From Polytrichum commune (Eukaryota; Streptophyta; Polytrichopsida; Polytrichales; Polytrichaceae), in the NCBI GenBank assembly GCA_950295325.1, contig OX485805.1:29809501-29873500 (forward strand): a DNA stretch of 64,000 nucleotides, read 5' to 3'. This document shows positions 17,276 to 55,600 of the stretch, piece after piece. Both the position numbers and the translations under genes were made by a program. Position 1 is the stretch's first letter. Each line of letters starts with the position of its first letter. The notes under the pieces were generated by a model. It had not been told where the DNA came from. It searched no databases and saw nothing but the letters and a program-made list of their open reading frames with translations.

Positions 17276-20200
17276 ATGAAAGCAAAAGCAATGAAGGTAG
17301 GTCCTATTCCCATTCTCGTCCTACTGCTCACCGTCTTCACCGTGCGATGTATCTTCTCCATCCCTGGAATTTTCGGCACCAAGCCTTCCCACAATCTAAC
17401 CTATGTCGGAGGGTACCCAATTGTAGTGGTTCGAAGACATCCAGATTCCCCGTCTCCTAGCCCGGACAACGAAACCTTAATTCATCCTCGCTTCAACGCC
17501 TCAGTTAATTCTTCAACTTCATCCATCCCTGCTCATCAACACAACGAATCGGTTGTGTCGGTGTACCCTACACCTGCAGCTGAGGCGGGAGTTCCAAGGA
17601 TCGATCCTGTGTGGAAACTGCTCGTGGGCACTTTGAGCAAGAAAGATGTGTCGAAGGACGCCAAAAATGCTTTGGATGGGGGGTTGCAGGCATGGGCAGA
17701 GGTGAGTAAAATGATGGCTAGCGAGGTCAAGGAACGGAGAAAGAATAATGGTGGTAAGAAATTAGCAGCTGCGGATACCAAGTGTCCTTACATGGTGAGC
17801 ACGGTGAATGCTACTGCGTTGAAATCCAAAGAGGAGAGAGAAGTGCCCATCCCATGTGGCTTAATTCTGGACTCTTCCATCACCATTGTGGGCACTCCCG
17901 TTGGCTCTACGGGGGAATTTGCCTTCGAGCTTGTAGGGTCGAAGCTTTTGGGCGAGGTGGAGGAGCCAATTGTGTTCCACTTCTCCGTAAGATTACGTGG
18001 AGATCGGAAGACCGACCGGCCAGTGATTGTGCACAACACGTGGAGCAGTGATGATGACTGGCATGAGGAGCAACGATGCCCCCGGCCACCGGATGTGAAT
18101 CCCCTTACGGCGAATCTAGGTCAGTATCGATTCTTTTATTCTAACAATATATCAATCTTTCTATATATCTATCTCCCTGCACTTCCTGACATCTCAGTAC
18201 TTCTTCCCATTCCATTTGTGTGCAACAAAAACTGCTGTTTCATGTGCAGTCAGGGAGGATAGGATGTTTGTAGTAATTTTATTATCACTAGTACCCCTGT
18301 CCCTTGATATAGAGAGTTTGCAGAAGGAGCAAAGTGAGGGAGGATAGGATGTTTGTTGTCATTTGTTAGCACTAGTAACCCCCTCCCACGCCAAATGGAA
18401 TTAGCAGTAGGAAACAAAGTGAGGAAGAATAGGATCTTTGTTTACGATTCCTTAGCAATAGGACCCCTCTCCCATGCCAAAAGGATTTAGCAGAAGGAAT
18501 CAAAGTCATAGAGGGTAGGATGTTTATTGTAATTTCACTAACACTAGTACCCCTGTCCAATGCCAGAAGGATTTAGCGGAAGGAAATAAAGTGATGGAGG
18601 ATAGGATAGGATGTTTGTTGTGATTCATTAGCACTAGTGCCCCTCTCCCATGCCAACAGGATTTAGCAAATGGAAGCAAATTCAGGGAGGGCAGGATGTT
18701 TGGTGTGATTCATTAGCACCAGTACTTCTGTCCCATGCTAAAAAGGTTTTGCAGGAGGGAGGATAGGCTGTTTGTTATATTTTTAAGCACTAGTACCCTC
18801 TCCCATCCAAAAAGATTTAGCAGATTGAAACAAAGTGAGGGAGGATAGGATGTTTGTGGTGATTCATAAGCGCTAGTACCCCTCTCGCGTGCTAAAAGGA
18901 TTTAGCAGAAGGAAGCAAAAGTGAGGAAGGATAGGATGTCTGTGGTGGTTTATTAGCGCTGGTCCCCCTCTCCCATCCTAAAAGGACTTAGCAGAAGGGA
19001 ACTAAGTCGAAAACAATTAACAGGAGACTAATAAGTAATTATCCACGTCATCACAGAAGTGAAGGATTCCCTGGACACATGGCTCAAGTGCAAACTTGTC
19101 ATGGTGATTGCACTACTGCAAAGGAGAAATCCTCTGGAAGAAGATTGCTCCCTTATATGTGTGCACACAACTGCCTGGTTTTATTTCTCAAGCATCTAAG
19201 TGTTTTGGTGACTAACCTACTTGGGAGTCATTTTTTGCATTTACAACAGGCAACTATCCAAGTTCACCTGGAAGTGAAACATCCTCCCAATGGTTCACAT
19301 AGTTAAATGAAGATATAACCATTGGGAGATTGCTTTTTTCTCTGTTTAAAAAATCATTTATTAAACTCTCACCTCACACTGGGGTTGATGGGTTGACAGT
19401 GGACGGTGTGGAGGTTTGCAATCCCCAAATTGGGCGAAACATAACCAGGAGGAGTGGTCCGGGGTCATGGAAGCAGCTGAATGGCGTTGAGAAGGAACTG
19501 GATGCCGTCTGGTTTCCATTTGCAGAGGGATATCCCTTTGTGGCAACTTTAGTTGCTGGGTGGGATGGTTTCCACATGTCCGTCAATGGAAAACACATCA
19601 CTGCATTCAAGTATCGCCAGGTAAATTGGTCATACATCTCAGAATGTGCTGGATCTTGTGGTAGGAGAGAGGCTTGTTTATCTAAACCCCTTGTGGCTTT
19701 TAGCTTCACTCACGTAAATTCCATGGAATTCTGGTAGAATTAATACTGGGTTTAAGCTCCCAAGTTTCCTGGGAACAGATTCACTTCTGTAGAATGCAAT
19801 TTGTTTTGGGTATCATATGTACTGAGTGTTTCTTCGAGATATAAGAGAGAAATTCGCCAGGATTTGGAAGTCAAGATGAAGAAAGGGGAATGTAGTGTGT
19901 AAGTTCTATTGAAGCTTGACTTGTTCTTGAATTCCTACGTGCAGAGCTTAGAGCCGTGGATGATTACGAGGATGCGCTTCAGTGGTGATTTGGAGCTGAA
20001 GGAAGTGTTGGTGAATGGACTTCCTATTTCAGATGATGCATCACTTATACCAGATCTGAAACTCCTCAAAGCACCTAAAGTAGCCAAAAATGTCACCCTT
20101 TTTGTTGGCGTGTTTTCAAGCAACAGCAACTTTGTTCGTCGAATGGCCTTGCGAAGGACCTGGATGCAGTACCCTTCTGTGCGAAATGGTAGCGTGGTGG

Positions 20201-27692: not shown

Positions 27693-28157
27693 TGTGGTAA
27701 TTGGGGGTTAGGTTGGACTTCAAATGTTCTTGGTTAATATTTCTATCTATGAATTTTCAGTAACTGTGGTTCATTAAATGTTTTTAGGGTTTAGCCTAAA
27801 ATATGGTTTGCTAAAGGGTATATATCTTGAGGCAGTAAATTGGAATTTAAGGATTATGGTTATATGAAGATATGTTTTATAATGACGTTAAAATTAAAAA
27901 CAATTGACAAGGATTAATTGTGCTTCGTTATCTTCTTCTAGTTTCTACCTAGATTGTCCAACTACAACCTGAGTCAACTCTATTTATGGGAATGACTCAC
28001 TTGAGAACTATACTCGAACTCCTAGTATATCTTAACCACACTTCTTGCAACCAAATATTTTTTCTATCCTAATATGAGACTATTTATTGTGTAACATCTA
28101 AAAATTGTTGTAAATTAATACTATGGTTATATTACCAACCTCATAGACTTGGGTTTA

Positions 28158-29014
28158 GGGTACATATTGTGTATATAGCTCATTTGGATTTAGGAAAAAT
28201 TAAATATTCATTTGTCATATTGTTAAATTTTCTGTATATGTTTCAACAACCTAAGTCCAAACGCATCCGCTATTTCAAAAGGACTAGGAAAGCGGCTAAG
28301 GTCCATGTGGTTGAAGATTCATTGTACCTCACGCGATGAATGCCTATAATATTTGCAATGATGGCGTATTTGGCCACCAATCCTGGACGCAACTTGTGGA
28401 AAGAGCCAAGGCACTACACATATTACGATATCGTCAAAGGTGATGTTTGGCTTCATGATCCAATACTTAGAGACAAAAAAAAAATACATAGAAGCTTATA
28501 AAATGAATTATGCTTCATTCCAATTTTTGGTTTTAGAAATAAAACCATGGATTACTTCTAATGCTTTAATCATTGTGAGGGAGCCCCTCCATGTACATAA
28601 GGCTGTAGGTTTGAATCTTTATAGGTTGGCGTATGAGTATGTTGTGACCCTCATGACATACTGATTTTGTGTAGGCACTTTTATAGTTCGTGAATATATG
28701 AATATTATTATAGATGTTCTAATTAATGAGCAAAAATTATTTACTTGGTATAATTCTATACCGCAAGAAAATAGGTGGCAATATCTAATTGTTTGTTTTG
28801 AATTCATATGTGGTTTGCTAAATGTTGTTGGCGAAATAAATGGCATTTACATTCCATTGATTAAAAACCCAAGTCATCGTGACATAGCAGTGCCTATTGA
28901 TTTTTATCGTGTTCGAAAAATATTCAACTCAGTGGTCTTTCAAGCTATTTGTGATGCACATAATTTCTTTTCAAAAATTTGTTTCAATATACCTGGCGGT
29001 ATAACTGACGATTA
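28158..29014 (+). pseudogene. PIF/Harbinger transposase relic, copy 1
   Basis: Broken by stops and frameshifts, but recognisable as a HARBI1/DDE_Tnp_4-type nuclease. An N-terminal part reads DIVKGDVWLHDP, then a LYRLAYEYV helix, then in one frame (to the stop at 29012-29014) LLNVVGEINGIYIPL, FNSVVFQAICD and FNIPGGITDD. These correspond to the family's VVGxxDGTxI, QAVCD and G-PGSxHD blocks. The first catalytic Asp of the DGT block reads Asn (EING), so the copy would be dead even if repaired. The family moves Tourist-like elements, several of which are present in this window. Confidence 0.75.
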
Positions 29015-31379: not shown

Positions 31380-32900
31380 TTTGGGAATGTCAAAGAATAG
31401 GAAATAATAAGAGGACGCAATTGTAGTCCTAGATAATGACCGGGTAGAACCAGCAGTTAGTTGCAGATAAACCGGTTGAAATTTCAACCATATGTGCATT
31501 CTATGTGTATTGAACAGGAGCTACTTCCACACCTTTAGACTCCGGAATTTCTTCATTGGTGCTCTCACCCTCATTTGATTTTGCTACTGATACTGCAGCA
31601 GCTGGAGCCTCCTCAGTTGTCCGAAACTACGCTTTAGGATGGTTGGTCTTGAATTACCCTAAACTACACTGAAGACCTTGGCCAGAATTAAAAGTTTGTA
31701 CCTATTGTGCACTTCCTTAGTGAATCCAAATAAAACAGACGCCATTGAGGGATGCCATGTTATCAGGTTTATACTATGTAAGCCATGTTATGTTAAGCTT
31801 GTGTTAAGTGTGTATTTATACAATCTAAGTTAATTTAACAATTCTGCTCAATAGGACCTAGACTCCATTTGAAGAACAAAACCACCAGATGTAGGGTAAG
31901 TTATTGAGCTTCTAAGAACTGGCAATAGAGTGTAGGGTGACTACATTTCACACAGTAGCAACAGATTAGTGGTAAGTCTCTGTAGCATTTTTGAAAAGAA
32001 CAGGAGAATTTGATTGGAACTGGGTAGTTAGTGAAAAGAGCTTTAATGTCATTCATGTACACAATTTTGTAGGAGGCCCCTAAACCAACAGGAAAACCAT
32101 GATCATAAGTGATACGTGGGGAGCCACCCTTGACATTGTTCTACAAATCTGGTATAGTACCGATTTGTAGTCTCCTTCCGATCACCGCTACTGGCAAATT
32201 ATCCAAAATTGTGCAGGTTAATATGTAATTGAACATAAATAATGGTAAGAGCAACCCCCAAGAACTCACTAGTGTACTAGATCCGCAGTGACAAGATTTT
32301 CCCAGTGAACTGCCAAATTTTGGCTACCCCCTATTGTTAGTTATCGAATGAGCAAGATCATTTTTTGTGACAATAAACAACATCAAATATTTACATGATG
32401 CCTTCCGCTCTACAAATTCCATGGTACTTAATAAATGGGCATTAGGCTTTCTTCACATTTTAGCAACCTGGCATTCTATGTAAGATGTCACGGTATGCGG
32501 CGTCAGCGGCCACACCTTATCCGTTGGATTTCATTCATTTAGATTTGGATGGATGAATCTTAGTTATTTAGAGGAAGGCTCCTAAGTGAGGAGTCTCCTC
32601 CTTGGCTTGGCATTCTTGCCAAGTCAAGTTTTGTGAGTGAGTGTGTGGAGAGAGGTTGTGTGAAGTGAAGATTGCATGTTTTTACAATAAATATTAAGTT
32701 CTTCTCCCCTTTCTTACACTCTTAGATTCTCCCGTGGTGGAGTGAGAGATAGCTTGAGTCATTGTATGCATTTGAAGAAAGATTAGAGCTCTTATGAGTT
32801 TTTACCTCTCATGCTTCTCATTTGACAAGAATGCATTATTCATTTTTTTTCTCTTCAAATCTTGAGCTACAACACTCAAGAAAGAATGTGAGGACAAGTG
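31380..32900. other. Intergenic, no supported gene
   Basis: Anonymous AT-rich sequence. A block at about 32520-32900, ending shortly before the second Harbinger relic, reads like transposon or LTR leader sequence, but no paired repeat was found in the window. Confidence 0.45.
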
Positions 32901-32912
32901 GTGGCGGGATTG

Positions 32913-34170
32913 TGGATACATGTTGTGTATATATCTCATTTAATTTTAGGAAAATTAAAATATTCATTTATCATATTGATATAATGGAGCCTACTGCTAT
33001 AGCTATGATGTTAAATCTACTGTATATGTTTCAACAACCTAAGTCCAAACACATCCTCTATTTCAAAAGGTCTAGGAAAGCAACTAAGGTCCATATGGTT
33101 GAAGATTCGTTGTACTTCACATGATGAATGCCTATAATATTTGCAATGATGGTGCATTTGGCCACCTATCCTGGACGCAACTGGTGGAAAAGCCAAGACA
33201 CTACACAGATTACGATATCGTCAAAGGTGATGTTTGGCTTCATGATCCAATATTTAGAGACAAAAAAAATACATAGAAGCTTATAGAATGAATTATGCTT
33301 CATTTCAATTTTTGGTTTTTAAAAATTAAATATTGAATTACGTCTAATGCTTTAATCTTTGTGAGGGAGCCCCCCCCGGGTACGCAACTCCCGTATTATA
33401 TGGTCCTGATTATAATCACTTATAATGCGTTTTAGTCCAATATTGAGTGATACAATTTGTTTTAATGTAGGAAACCTTTGTAGCCCTTCTAACAAGGAAT
33501 CCAAAAATGTAATTATGTATAGGAAATGAATATATTTTGAAGCATATAATTGCATTAAAAACCTAATCATATGATTTTTTTAATACATGTACCATAGGTC
33601 AAACTACCCAACTTTTTGGACTTTTTAATAAAATTTCAACATTGTGAATGAATTATAATTTTAATGGGAGGCAACTATTAGTGGCTTATAATTTTAATGG
33701 GAGGCTTAATAAATATGCAACCCAATTTTTTTTCATCTCATTCATTTAATTTGGTCTTCACCCAGCTTTTTTTTCATCTCATTTTATTTAATTTGGTCTT
33801 TACCCAACTTTTTTTTCAGCTCATTTTATTCAATTTGGTCTTCACCCAACTTTTTGAAAATTTTAATTTGATATAATTTTTACAAAAGCCGTCCTTTAAG
33901 CCGTTTTAAGTACGATGCCCCCTGCGTATAATATGAGAGTTGCGTACTCGGGGGAGCCCCTCCATGTACATAAGGCTGTAGATTTGGTTTTTTATAAGTT
34001 GGCGTATGAGTATGTTGTGATCTTCATGGCATCCCGATTTTGTGTAGGCACTTTTATAGGTCGTGAATATATAAATACTATTATAGATGTTTTAATTAAT
34101 GAGAAAAAATTATTTACTTGGTATAATTCTATACCGCAAGAAAATAGATGGCAATATATAATTGATCGTT
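32913..34170 (+). pseudogene. PIF/Harbinger transposase relic, copy 2, split by an insertion
   Basis: Homologous to 28158-28800 over 32913-33373 and 33952-34170. Shared peptides include MFQQPKSK, EDSLY, DIVKGDVWLHDPI, EPLHVHKAV and TWYNSIPQENRWQY. It keeps a stretch near 32980 (MEPTAIAMM) that copy 1 has lost. The C-terminal catalytic part is missing after 34170. A separate element sits between the two halves. Confidence 0.75.
33374..33951. mobile_element. TIR element nested in the Harbinger relic
   Basis: The insertion point is shown by comparison with the intact copy at 28580. The ends are inverted: CCGGGTACGCAACTCCCG on the left, complement CCGAGTACGCAACTCTCA on the right. GGGAGCCCC occurs outside both ends (33365-33373, 33952-33960), a 9-bp target duplication as made by Mutator-like elements. 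The interior holds three tandem units of about 50 bp (about 33725-33855) built on an ATTTAATTTGGTCTTCACCC-like block. No coding capacity. Confidence 0.75.
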
Positions 34171-46300: not shown

Positions 46301-48554
46301 GCATGGGTAAGAGTGGTGGCCACACAATCATTGAAGAGGCGAAGAACAAATATGGAATGTACTCTTTTTGAGAGACAGAGCAACGAGAGTGCCCACCAGG
46401 GTACCTGAGCTTGGTAGAGACATACACAAATATGTTGCGAATTAGTTCAGAGATACAACTATGAAAACACCTATTAGTACCTGCAGGCAGAGGAGTAGTG
46501 TCTGAAGAGCAACTGCCAAGCAAAGTACTGAAAACACGACCTAAGATTGTTACGTGCATTAAACCTCACTTCTCAACCTTTTGTTGATAAGCAAGGATGA
46601 CCTTGACAGCTAAGACGGTTTACTTGAGGCTCGAGTCCTATGCCTGCCAGGTAAGAGGACAGAAAAGGGAACAGGATCGCACCACTTGGGTTCTGATGTA
46701 GATAAGGAGGACCAGGCTGAGGTTTATCACATACAAAACTCCAAAAATAATCTGGCCAGGAACAACGGACTTTGAATCAGCTAACCAAAAAAATGGTTGA
46801 CAATTGATGATTCCAGTAACATCATCCAAGGAATAGCGAAGTCAAATTCAGTATTGAGATTCATTCTGCCACACTCCCATTCACAAACATCCCTTAGCTC
46901 CATGCCCTAAGCAGATATGCTAAATAACAAAATCCAAATTGGTGTGGAGACATATATATTACAAAGCTCTAGATCCATATATCAACACTGATTTCTGAAT
47001 CACAACAAAGTACACCATTAAGCCAATGCCTATCAAACATAGGGTTGCAATTTTGAAATTTTGTTCTTATATTTTGCACTTGTAAGATCTATAAGAATGG
47101 ATTGTGAGTTAATTCAATGTTGCATGAATCGTTACCTGAATGTTGGATCAGCACTGAAAAGATAGTAAATCCTGACGGGTATGTGACGACATTGACTCAA
47201 CAACAAACGCTGATCACTTGCCTTTTGAGATGTAAGGTGGTGGTACCAACCTGTGCTGGAAAGACTGCAGCACCTGTTATATACTTAATAATTGAATAAA
47301 TGTAAAGGAACCCCGCAGGGTACACTAAAGGTCCTGTGTCGCCATGGAGCTCGGCATAATTTCGCTCGCCAGCCAAAAACCCTGTCACCTGAAAAAGGTA
47401 CGTCAGGCTGAGCAAAGACAAGGCAAAAACAAGGATCCTTCCACCACTATCCAAATTTTATCGGTCCAATTTCATCCTAGATTCGGATTTAAGTTTGCCA
47501 AATTCAACCGGAATGCACCTTACACAATTTGCACAATTTGCGCATCAGTACCACCTTCTTAGTTATTTCACTGATGACCGTTGTAACCTGATAAAATGAC
47601 TTATGGAGTCTTCAAAAACAACGATTTCCTCAAATTATGTATGTGTTCTTTACGAGAAACTGCATCTATTCTTGACTGTGTTTGATCGCAATGTAAGTAA
47701 AATGGAATTCTAATTTCTATGATATCTGAACAAGACTGCTGAACTGAAATCGTGCACATGAAATTTACAAAAAGCCTACTATATTGTTACAAAGCGCACC
47801 TGTGACATGTACGCATCCCAATCAATCTTCGTATCTGCAATTCCAAAATGCACAAAAGTGTGATGACAGAGAAAGAAAAACCTATGAAGTGTTCTGACTT
47901 GCCCCCCGTATTGCCTACAAAGTGAAAATTTTCATTAAAATGTCCTTCGGGATGTCACATGATTTTCAAAAGACCTCGCTAGTGCTCAGGGCATTAAAAA
48001 AATGAAGCTCGTGGCATCCATTCGGGGAAATTGCAAAAAGAATCACATCCTTGGCAGCCTCCAATTGTACAAAAAAAAATTTAAAAAGAAAAAAACACAT
48101 CAATGTTTCGGATTACTCCAGTAGGAAGGTGAAACAATCATGAAGATGTCAATGCACACGCGATTGATTGATGCCAAACGACTTCTGAAACTCTCTCGAT
48201 CGAGATTGAACACAATTCGCTTTCGCTGCTAGGGATTGTTTAAGAATTTTTAAATTTTGAAAAAATTATTCGTAACCTGAGCTGCTGCCTAGAGCTATGT
48301 AAACTTTTATCGCAAGACTTTACCCTGAGGTCAACCCTGTGTGTAGTCCAGAAGTTGTTCTTACAAGGAACACGGGCGATAATGAGGGCCGTGAGAAGAG
48401 CGTCGAAGAGAATGAGAGCACAGGCCCATGGGATGAGTACGGAGGATCGGGGGCGATCGCGGGGGGCGGCTCCGGGGCCTCGATCGCTCTTCTTCTCCGC
48501 CATAGTCGTTGCTGGTGCAGCTGAGTTCGCCGAGACAGAATCCGCCATAGCCAT
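43363..48554 (-). CDS. ALG3: ALG3: Dol-P-Man:Man5GlcNAc2-PP-Dol alpha-1,3-mannosyltransferase
   Basis: Thirteen exons on the minus strand: 48554-48365, 47834-47800, 47388-47251, 46751-46683, 46404-46247, 46007-45941, 45775-45722, 45396-45308, 44644-44528, 44271-44144, 44009-43931, 43794-43738, 43531-43363; 449 aa, phases continuous, all GT-AG. The enzyme adds the first dolichyl-phosphate-linked mannose to the lipid-linked oligosaccharide in the ER lumen, giving Man6. Family blocks appear in order: [10 protein letters not shown] (67-75), [11 protein letters not shown] (91-101), [54 protein letters not shown] and [13 protein letters not shown]. Many hydrophobic membrane segments are present. 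Start: the first ATG in frame with good context; a second lies 6 nt on. The loop joined by exons 10 and 11 looks a few residues short compared with the Arabidopsis protein as I remember it. Confidence 0.95.
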
Positions 48555-49453: not shown

Positions 49454-50180
49454 CACATACATAACCCTGGCCATGGGAGGAATTGGTCCATTCGACCACT
49501 GGAATTCAAGCACAGGAGCGGGAGCAGCACAAATGCACAAGAATATGTTTACGGCAATTGGCATCGGGCTTTAAGTTGTCTTTATTCTGGATGCCTTAGT
49601 TGCACAATTGGATTCTGAGAGGTGTGCAATTCGTTCTTGGATTGATAATCTCCACTTAAGTTAGGGCTTACACAGTCTGGTTTTCTGTTAATTACGATGT
49701 CCACTGAGAACCTTCAATTGCGGCCACTTACACATTCTCATTCTCTGCTACAATGTCTACTGAGAAACTTCGACTACAACTTACATATTCTGCTTTTCTG
49801 TTACAATATTGGATCTCTTGAATTCCCATAATCGACAGACACAACCGATATTTCTATTATGTAGACTGTTTCATTACCAATCTGCTGTATGCTTGTGATG
49901 CTTCCAATTGGCCATCCAAAGCTTTTAGATATATTACCTATGGTTTTAGCAGATGTAAGTTTCATATCCTTGTGCGCGCACTGGCATGTGAAAGTTGCAA
50001 AGCGCGCTCTTAATGTGTTCCTTGTCCATATACAATCACAATGGATGAGCGTCAGAGTTTTTGGTGTTGATTTTCAAGTTGCTCTGGATATTTCGAAACT
50101 CTGGAGACGGAGTCAACATAAGTACCAAGCTGATTATGAGCAGCTTGCCTCGCTAGATTCAAATCCTTGCCAGCTTTATC
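49454..50180. other. Upstream region of the hydrolase gene
   Basis: No coding feature supported; presumably promoter and 5' UTR. No clear TATA box could be fixed. Confidence 0.4.
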
Positions 50181-51332
50181 ATGTTGCGGCTGGGATGCGT
50201 ATGTCTTTTAGTTTTTCTAGCTCAAATTGCGGTCCTTCGCCAGGAGCATCACATAAGCTCCTGTAGTGATGATGACCTTGCACAACTGGCAGTGCACCGC
50301 GACTACTTCTATGTCGGAGGTGAGTATGTGACCATGGCGTCAGGTGAGGGTTTGATGAAGAACCAAATGTATGTGGAGAAGTTGTCTGCAACGGGCTACG
50401 AATCGACGCAGCCATATCCTTTGGTGCTCATCCATGGGAAAGCAAATACTGGAGTAACTTGGCTGAATACCCCGGACGGACGACCAGGTTGGGCCTCATA
50501 TTTTCTCTGCCAAGGCTACGTCGTCTACATCATCGACCAGCCAACGCGGGGTAGATCCGCTTGGTTACCTGGCGACTTTGCAATGGACACCTTCTCTTTC
50601 GAATATATCCAGGCGAGAATTACAGCCACGGAAAAGTACAACCTCTGGCCTCAATCTACGAAGCACACTCAATGGCCCGGGACTGGAGAGAAAGGGGATC
50701 CGATTTTTGACGCTTTCTACGCATCCACTGTGCAGTTTCTCTCTAACGACACCGAGGCGCAAATCAAGACTCGCGACGCTGTTGTGGCGTTGTTGGATAA
50801 GATTGGAGCTGCAGTTTTGCTCACTCACTCTCAGGGGGGTTTATACGGGTGGCCGATTGCTGACAGTCGTCCTCACCTTGTCAAAGCGATCGTCGCAGTC
50901 GAACCTACCGGCCCGCCATTTCAAGAAGCAGTTTTCGGGAATAATCCGGCCCGGGCATGGGGCTTGACGGACATCGCAATGACGTACTCGCCCGCAGTGT
51001 CAAAACCACTAGAGCAGATCAAAACGGTGAAAGTGCCATCAATTGACAGCGATCTGTACTCAAGCTGTATAATGCAGGTTGAGCCTCATGTGCACGTTCT
51101 GCCGAACCTCAAGGACATTCCGATCTTGATTGTTGTCTCTGAGTCGTCTTTTCATGCTGTCTACGACCACTGCTCAGCCAAATTCTTGCTGCAAGCCGGA
51201 GTCAAGAATGTGGAGTTGCTCCGACTGGAAGACGTCGGCATCAGGGGCAACGGCCATGCGATGATGAAGGAGAACAACAACTTGAAGGTTGCAAGAGTGC
51301 TGCAAGAATGGGTGCAAAAGAACGTCGATTAA
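50181..51332 (+). CDS. Secreted alpha/beta hydrolase, esterase 713-like, intronless
   Basis: A single open frame of 383 aa, ATG to TAA, without introns. Residues 1-20 (MLRLGCVCLLVFLAQ...) form a signal peptide. The alpha/beta hydrolase fold follows: oxyanion-side LVLIHG (81-86), TPDGRPGW (98-104), a VYIIDQPTRGRSAW segment, nucleophile Ser217 in THSQGG, acid Glu241 in AVEP after the next strand, and His359 in GNGHAMM. The Glu acid in a VEP motif, the NQMYVE start and the GNGHAMMKENNNL end match the family of bacterial esterase 713 and its fungal relatives, as I remember it. Substrate is unknown; carboxylester hydrolysis at the cell surface or outside is likely. All other genes here have introns. 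It converges with the phosphatase gene (1.36 kb between stops). Confidence 0.88.
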   Translation: MLRLGCVCLLVFLAQIAVLRQEHHISSCSDDDLAQLAVHRDYFYVGGEYVTMASGEGLMKNQMYVEKLSATGYESTQPYPLVLIHGKANTGVTWLNTPDGRPGWASYFLCQGYVVYIIDQPTRGRSAWLPGDFAMDTFSFEYIQARITATEKYNLWPQSTKHTQWPGTGEKGDPIFDAFYASTVQFLSNDTEAQIKTRDAVVALLDKIGAAVLLTHSQGGLYGWPIADSRPHLVKAIVAVEPTGPPFQEAVFGNNPARAWGLTDIAMTYSPAVSKPLEQIKTVKVPSIDSDLYSSCIMQVEPHVHVLPNLKDIPILIVVSESSFHAVYDHCSAKFLLQAGVKNVELLRLEDVGIRGNGHAMMKENNNLKVARVLQEWVQKNVD

Positions 51333-52691: not shown

Positions 52692-55600
52692 CTACTTGGA
52701 CCACACTTTGTTGTGGATGACTGCAGAGTCAGCTGAGACAGCTTCTCCGTCCTGATTTCGGTGCCAGGTCCACAATGCCGTGGTGCGGTTCTTGATGTCC
52801 AAAAGTCCATGGCCAAAGCTAGCTTCCCGGAACGCAGAGTAGTTTGGTTGTGGCTGTGTGAAGCTGCACAATTATGGAGCACATGAAATTTCTTAGCCAA
52901 CTTCACACAAACCGCACACGTCCCTGCAGGTATACAAAGGTTTATTTAAATGAAATGGTGGTCAGGTTTGAAGATCATGAGGACTTACTTTCCAGCCAGG
53001 CCTTCAATGTTACCACCATCACCAATAGTGATATAGGTAGGAGCCGCTGGGTTGAGTTTTGGAATGCAGACTCCATTCGTGATGTTGTAGAGCACATTTG
53101 AGACGGGGAACTGGAAACAATTTAGCAAATTAGATCCTAGAATACAAGTCAGCAGCAGAGGGGACATGTTATGACATGGGAGGAAATTATTCGTGACTTT
53201 CTCCTCCTATATGTATGCTGAAGAGCGATGAAGCATGTGATGCAGGATATGGCGAAACTCACCGATCGCTCATATGCGTGCACATGGCCAGCGAAAACGA
53301 TGTCGACCTTCGCTGCAACAATCCACCCCTCGAACATCACCCGCATCGTTTCACCTTCCATGTAGTGGTAGGTGTTGGAGTTGTACCAGGGCGAGTGCAC
53401 CAGCACAAACAACCAGGGGGTTACATTCCTGTCCACTCGTGCAAGCTCCTCTTGCAACCATTGCCATTGTGGGGTATACTTTCCTGCAACATCATAAACA
53501 TGAAAAATCAATTTCTACAATTCCTATCTAACCTCGTTGATAATGCCACTGCAATCTGTATACATGAGTTCCATCATAATTTTCAATAATACACACCAAT
53601 TGAGCTTTCTGCTATGAGAAGATTTTCTATTTGGCTCATCATCACCATTTGGACAAGTTATATAAGTGCGCTGCAACTGTTTCTTCCCAGTTTGGCGATG
53701 AACCTAAAGAAGGAGATTCACATCGTGGAATCACTTTGACTTGTGCAAGAAAAATATACCGTATGCAGAGTAGGAGGAGAGGACGATGATGTGCGCAGGC
53801 CCTCTCTTGACGGCGTAGAAGAGAGCGTTAGTGCTGTTGCTTGATCTGTAAGGGGTAGGGAAGCGGTGCAGGAATGGCTTGAAAGGAGTAGCCTCATCCT
53901 GAACAACACCAGAGTAACTTCTCCGACGTCAGAATTTAGGAACATCTTTAAATCGTCGACCAATTCGAAGTAGCATCATCAAAACGTAGAAAGGAGTTAA
54001 GTAGTTGGCTTACAATTGCGGGCAGGAAGTCAAGCTCGTGGTTTCCAGCGGTCCAAATCCATGGCTGATAAGCAAAACTGCGCTCAACGAATCTAGTCCA
54101 TGTATCCCACCGGTTTTGGTCATCGTTGGGATAGTTATCTTGATACGCGAGATCACCCACGAAAAGCACAGACTGGCCATAGCTCTGCAAGTAATGCTCC
54201 AAAGTGGCAGCAGAGTCGTATGTCTGTCCCAAGTCCCCTGCCACAACCAAAAAAATTATCATCAACAAACCACTGAGTAAATCGATCTTTCCTTGCTTAC
54301 TTATAGGAGAAGCTCCAAATTGCTTAGATGACTGGGTGCATGTATACTCACCGATGAGGCCAAACGTGTAGGGAGTGTCAAGACCATGCGCGGGAGGGGT
54401 CATGAACCAAAACTCGCGGGCGTATTTACCGGTTCCAACCTTGTAATAGTATTTCTTGTTGTACTGCAACCCAAAATTCAACAGAAGTGATCAAGCAGCA
54501 TTTCAAGAGTACTACGGTTTACATGGCGAATCGACAGAGGGTATGCGACAGAGGCAGAGTTGCAAATTAAATGCAGAAATACTAAATATTCGCTGATGCT
54601 CTAAGACATGATAGTTTTTTTAAGAGTGTATATATCATTGAGGATGATGCACATATCACTTTACCTGTAAGTTGCCAATGGTGACATGGTGGATATATCC
54701 CGAAGTGTAATTGTAGTAGGTGTATTGCGTTGTCACTCCTTTCGCTTCCCATGAGTGCACGCCCTTCTTGATACCGTAGCGGACCTTCGATGCAGCGTGC
54801 GAAGGAGTCACCCAGCTTACGATAACAGCTTTGCCATCATAGTCTCCCTGCGTCAGGTGCACCTGCAATCCACACAGATCCAATCAGCAACATATTTCCT
54901 CAATCTCACCTATTCTCAATGATCTTGCAGGAACTGCTGATACAACACTGTCGCTACTACTACTACTTATGTTCCTGCTTGCAATCTGTTGGGGTCTGTA
55001 ACGAGATCAATTCCAAGAAAATAACGACAAATCCAGTGGATTCTTTTACATCCATCGATGTCATTAAGGTTCGCAGGAGTAAGACCCCCTTAACACTAGA
55101 GCTCCAGTTGAGAGCTTAAACTTGCAATCTAGAGGATTTGATACTTGGGTTTGAGCAAGTGTAAGACTAAGAGCTTTACACTTGCTCAAACAATTGAGAG
55201 CTTGAGGATTAGATAAGTGCCAATGCTCAAAGTGAGATACTAGGGGGAACGATACCTAACAAAGGAGACTTCACGACAAGTGGAAGAATACTCGAAACCC
55301 CATTGGCTTGGGCCCACAAAACAGGGGCTCAAACATTCCCAACATTCCCAGTAAACGTCGACCTCCACGAGATTACTTAGCACTTTGACCAAGAGCTAGT
55401 CGTAATCGTCGTCTCGAGCACATGAGGATCCATCATAGCCTCATCTACGCATTGCAAGTCTAGTGAAAAGTTTTAACACTATAGTCGAAAGCCCAAGTGA
55501 AAAGTGATATTGCGTGAACAAACAAGAATCCGTGAGATACTCTTCGCCAAAGAGAAAGACTCCTTTCTTCAAGCTCACAACCTCACAGATAACGCATTCA

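Follow-up and report, generated by a model that had tools for sequence, protein, structure and literature searches.

The esterase gene and its neighbourhood

Within the window, i.e., the whole 64-kb stretch of Polytrichum commune DNA analyzed here, positions 50181-51332 of the plus strand form a single unbroken frame from ATG to stop, with 383 codons plus the stop, exactly as the original prediction described it. On the basis of the frame and of Pfam and PDB sequence matches, it is read as the intronless coding sequence of an esterase 713-like hydrolase. The frame is open from 50157, the preceding in-frame stop occupying 50154-50156, and it is the longest of 16 ORFs of at least 120 aa in the window, the second longest having 328 aa. 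Because bacterial homologues align throughout in BLAST matches (residues ~40-382, several of them from residues 1-7), no coding intron is hidden in the aligned stretch; an intron in an untranslated region could still be present. In the encoded protein, Asn189 lies in the only N-glycosylation sequon, and there are six cysteines. A search of the 64-kb window for a second copy returned the self match alone below an E value of 0.05, and an Rfam scan gave nothing at the gathering score.

Plant-type genes lie on both sides of the esterase within this one window. An exon-like frame at 47200-47457 on the minus strand corresponds to an ALG3-type mannosyltransferase (Pfam PF05208, 6.8e-18), and at least three open frames at 53152-54883, also on the minus strand, to a purple acid phosphatase (PF16656, 2.7e-15; PF00149, 3.4e-08 and 9.5e-08). 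On the plus strand, at 17-21 kb, the Pfam domains of a galectin-domain galactosyltransferase are carried by two separate open frames. From these neighbouring gene families the source of the DNA was judged to be a plant. The claim that every other gene here has 3-13 coding exons was not reproduced: by Pfam domains, only the galactosyltransferase (two open frames) and the purple acid phosphatase (three) were seen to be split.

The esterase gene itself has 51.2% GC and is set between AT-rich flanks, both with 37.8% GC. Its GC3 of 0.58 lies between the extremes of six coding pieces nearby (0.35-0.66, with the piece ends set roughly), so that the atypical codon composition that marks a recent transfer is not seen, and any transfer was therefore not recent. 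Together with the plant-type neighbours and the AT-rich flanks, this value makes the gene look resident, not contaminating. The ratio of observed to expected CpG is 0.91, vs 0.72 in the galactosyltransferase piece, a rise that is no proof of foreign origin. Between 48000 and 53500 there are no direct repeats of 18 bases or more, and the five inverted pairs in the same region are weak, with nothing resembling insertion borders.

Two other features of the window deserve mention. A tandem array with periods of ~86 and 176 bases occupies 18248-19007, inside or beside the galactosyltransferase gene. Moreover, the stretches 28073-29012 and 32798-34169 contain similar open frames, three of which were scanned and gave no Pfam match; we take these frames to be reminiscent of a decayed transposase.

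Protein family, predicted catalytic residues and selective constraint

The protein matches the Pfam family Abhydrolase_6 (7.4e-09) and, among proteins of solved structure, esterase 713 (1qlw, E value of 1.4e-27), BDI_1566 (4q34, 1.1e-26), and the chains of SulE (8goy at 6e-20, the others up to 4.1e-18), while a profile built from 49 sequences matches 1qlw at 4.6e-50. These significant similarities, along with the residues described below, support its predicted membership of the esterase 713/SulE group of alpha/beta hydrolases. Further hallmarks of this group are a fold with a small two-helix cap and a lid loop that extends to the partner subunit, and carboxylesterase activity.

The putative nucleophile is Ser217 (codon at 50829-50831, plus strand), which lies in the motif THSQG at residues 215-219, without the GxSxG consensus; according to PMC10356948, this context is a rule of the group, and the consensus is likewise missing in esterase 713, 4q34, and SulE. 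The candidate catalytic acid is Glu241 (50901-50903, plus strand), found in VEPTGP and aligned with the VEP of 1qlw, and the candidate base is His359 (51255-51257, plus strand), found in GNGH. Glu241 and His359 are invariant in the alignment of 49 sequences, in which Ser217 is at least 90% conserved, and all three are invariant in a smaller alignment of 11 sequences. A Ser-Glu-His triad is thus obtained by alignment, the location of the Glu after the sixth strand being taken from SulE as described in the same source (PMC10356948). There, mutants of the corresponding Ser209, Glu232, or His333 of SulE are reported to keep ~0.001% of the activity. Both the family and the placement of the triad had been proposed beforehand, and the PDB matches and the two alignments bear them out.

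The N-terminus was assessed by a crude hydrophobicity test rather than by a dedicated predictor. Among all 15-mers of the protein, those starting at residues 4 and 5 score highest, with a Kyte-Doolittle mean of 2.65, in a test in which an internal 15-mer, the best one past residue 40, also reaches 2.11. The hydrophobic stretch spans residues 4-19 and fits a signal peptide, so that a putative signal peptide region is placed at residues 1 to about 25 (50181-50255, plus strand). A hydrophobic stretch also precedes the core domain in 56 of the 80 bacterial loci analyzed, whereas 24 fail, six of these being too short to score. With such stretches present in bacteria, a gain of the signal peptide on the plant side is not required. 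As for the signal peptide of the original prediction, the hydrophobic N-terminus stands and the secretion signal is plausible.

The frame also bears marks of selection. Of the 66 alignment columns with a uniformity of 90% or more in 48 bacterial rows, the window protein keeps 62, and the four departures, at residues 70, 134, 183, and 210, involve no catalytic position. When the sequence was mutated at random in silico, none of 200 runs was free of stops at 55% protein identity; the corresponding counts were 1/200 at 70%, 0/200 at 80%, and 17/200 at 90%, in a test that ignores indels and is silent on present-day expression. These results speak for a frame that was under selection until recently; they do not speak for expression today.

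Bacterial relatives and phylogenetic placement

Bacterial and archaeal genomes hold at least 480 relatives of the protein, the best 80 of which were analyzed. Among these 80, the closest are L011, from a Hyphomicrobiales metagenome-assembled genome, and L012, from an uncultured Paracoccus, with 54.7% and 54.2% identity, respectively, over residues 40/42-382/383. Matches were also found in 85 plasmid records, with a best identity of 43.8%, and viral contigs gave one distant relative (27%). By their tree labels, the 80 loci belong mostly to Pseudomonadota, followed by Acidobacteriota and by single representatives of Actinomycetota, Bacteroidota, Chloroflexota, and Vulcanimicrobiota; many of them come from metagenome-assembled genomes, the labels of which may be wrong.

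The bacterial gene neighbourhoods were considered as a clue to the substrate. A PQQ alcohol dehydrogenase adjoins the esterase in three of the 80 loci, a CoA-transferase in three of the 80 as well, and EthD-family genes are found beside it in three of nine annotated plasmid regions (L005, L006, and L010), which is too inconsistent to name a substrate. In L015, L016, and L080 a gene for a PQQ-dependent dehydrogenase of the methanol/ethanol type, assigned by similarity in L080, lies downstream of the esterase, and this dehydrogenase might use the alcohol set free in the esterase reaction. Separately, six of the 80 loci (L040, L043, L055, L062, L069, and L076) have two tandem esterase domains in one long frame, each locus giving two separate BLAST matches, and appear to represent a variant of the family in which the domain is duplicated.

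For the phylogeny, a tree of 74 rows was rooted on L007 and L008, with an ingroup of 71 bacteria and rows drawn from outside plants and fungi; 18 of the initial 92 rows (near-duplicates, long branches, and the viral row) had been left out. The esterase falls inside the bacteria, the smallest well-supported set around it having 21 rows, 20 of them bacterial, with a bootstrap of 96 and an SH-aLRT of 85, on a long terminal branch of 0.71. A quick tree of all 92 rows recovers the same neighbourhood, with the esterase in a set of 22 rows (SH-aLRT 95). A tree in which the esterase is constrained to lie outside the 71 ingroup bacteria is worse by 10.88 log-likelihood units, with an AU p value of 0.048, which is marginal and comes from a test chosen after the tree had been seen. 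Placements of the esterase as sister to L013+L014 (p 0.199) or to L011+L012 (p 0.099) are not rejected, so that no particular donor group is fixed. The gene nests among the sampled bacteria, i.e., among the best 80 of at least 480 relatives in a comparison free of plants and fungi. For the microbial origin proposed in the original prediction there is support on the bacterial side, by identities of up to 54.7% and by the nesting, while the AU rejection of an outside placement is only marginal.

Origin and possible role of the esterase

The best explanation, to which we give a probability of about 0.7, is that the gene is a resident plant nuclear gene, taken up in the distant past from a microbe within the esterase-bearing bacterial lineage group and kept under selection; the transfer, the secretion, and the activity are what we infer. 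The nearest relatives found are bacterial, and the nesting among them recurs in the 74-row and 92-row trees. The lack of a coding intron, whereas two neighbours are split into several frames, points the same way, and the 62 retained columns and the failure of all 200 drift runs at 55% identity argue that the gene was kept. Its GC3, similar to that of the neighbours, between two flanks of 0.378 GC suits a composition that would since have adapted to the host. Against this, the nesting holds among the sampled bacteria only, the AU result is marginal and the end branch long, two sister placements are allowed and thus name no donor group, and the CpG ratio proves nothing about foreign origin; likewise, intronless genes are common in plants without any transfer. 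It is a lesser possibility that a fungus, perhaps itself supplied by bacteria, was the immediate donor of the same enzyme, the bacterial nesting then reflecting a deeper history. The esterase 713-like family also occurs in fungi, but bacterial sequences already reach 54.7% identity. For this donor there are precedents in Marchantia, where fungus-to-plant transfer is reported for other enzymes, such as GH88 and terpene synthases (PMC12890914). A fungal source overlaps with the old microbial acquisition favored here, which leaves the donor open.

Vertical descent from an ancient eukaryotic or plant gene, with losses in many lineages and a superficial bacterial affinity produced by sparse sampling and long branches, is unlikely. 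The marginal AU value, the branch of 0.71, and tree rows without other eukaryotes would suit it, but the nested placement (96/85) is repeated in the 92-row tree. Very improbable is a recent pseudogene or an untranscribed, functionless insertion: the DNA evidence used here leaves room for it, but the frame is full length, 62 of the 66 conserved columns are retained, and the drift runs seldom stayed free of stops even at 90% identity. Rated lowest of all is a bacterial fragment joined into the plant sequence by contamination or chimeric assembly, which the missing introns, the bacterial relatives, and a GC content above that of the flanks might suggest. It is opposed by AT-rich flanks with plant-type genes beyond them on both sides and no bacterial neighbour gene seen, by the neighbour-like GC3, and by the identities among the searched records (at best 54.7%, and 43.8% for plasmids), none of which is a near-identical bacterium.

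In the favored reading, the N-terminal signal of the esterase would probably send the product into the secretory pathway, and hydrolysis would occur outside the cytosol. His359, oriented by Glu241, would activate Ser217, which would attack the carbonyl of a carboxylic ester and give an acyl-enzyme; water would then hydrolyze this intermediate to release the alcohol and the acid. This mechanism agrees with the mutations of the corresponding residues in SulE, as given in PMC10356948. By analogy with esterase 713 and SulE, the substrate may be guessed to be an ester of small to medium size, derived from microbes or plants, e.g., a methyl ester. A more specific and rather doubtful proposal is that an ester-degrading enzyme of the periplasmic type found in soil bacteria now resides in the plant apoplast, where it would cleave microbial or environmental esters as a plant-encoded counterpart of SulE-like detoxification.

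Microbial gene transfer into plants is already well documented, and an event of this general kind would not be new. If confirmed, the gene would add one more microbial enzyme kept by plants, here a secreted esterase, and would offer a specific case to test, a single intronless gene with a well-studied triad and with relatives of known structure, including degraders of sulfonylurea herbicides. Our literature search turned up no esterase 713-like gene described from a plant, and the classic transfer papers, outside its reach, may list it.

Several known systems are close to what is proposed here. GH88 and microbial terpene synthases in bryophytes (PMC12890914) and Tma12 in ferns (PMC12448838) are reported as microbial enzyme genes kept in land plants; as far as the available portions of these two sources extend, the transfers concern other protein families, and no member of the esterase 713 group is named. 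The prokaryotic L011 and L012 have the same triad in a single continuous frame, but both lie beside a CoA-transferase gene, whereas the window esterase lies beside plant-type genes. SulE, a sulfonylurea herbicide esterase (8goy and others), resembles the window protein in its Ser-Glu-His triad, the lack of GxSxG, and a signal peptide, putative in the window protein (PMC10356948). The similarity between the two is low (6e-20), and SulE has a lid loop, a dimeric state, and herbicide activity, whereas the window protein is known from its sequence alone. BDI_1566 of Parabacteroides distasonis (4q34) matches the window protein in two stretches; L008, a plasmid relative from the same species, is 30% identical to the window protein, falls outside the ingroup, and served as outgroup. 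Esterase 713 of Alcaligenes (1qlw) is the best PDB match and is distant too, the matches being confined to three stretches, residues 62-127, 204-249, and 336-381 of the window protein, with the VEP and GN.H motifs common to both proteins.
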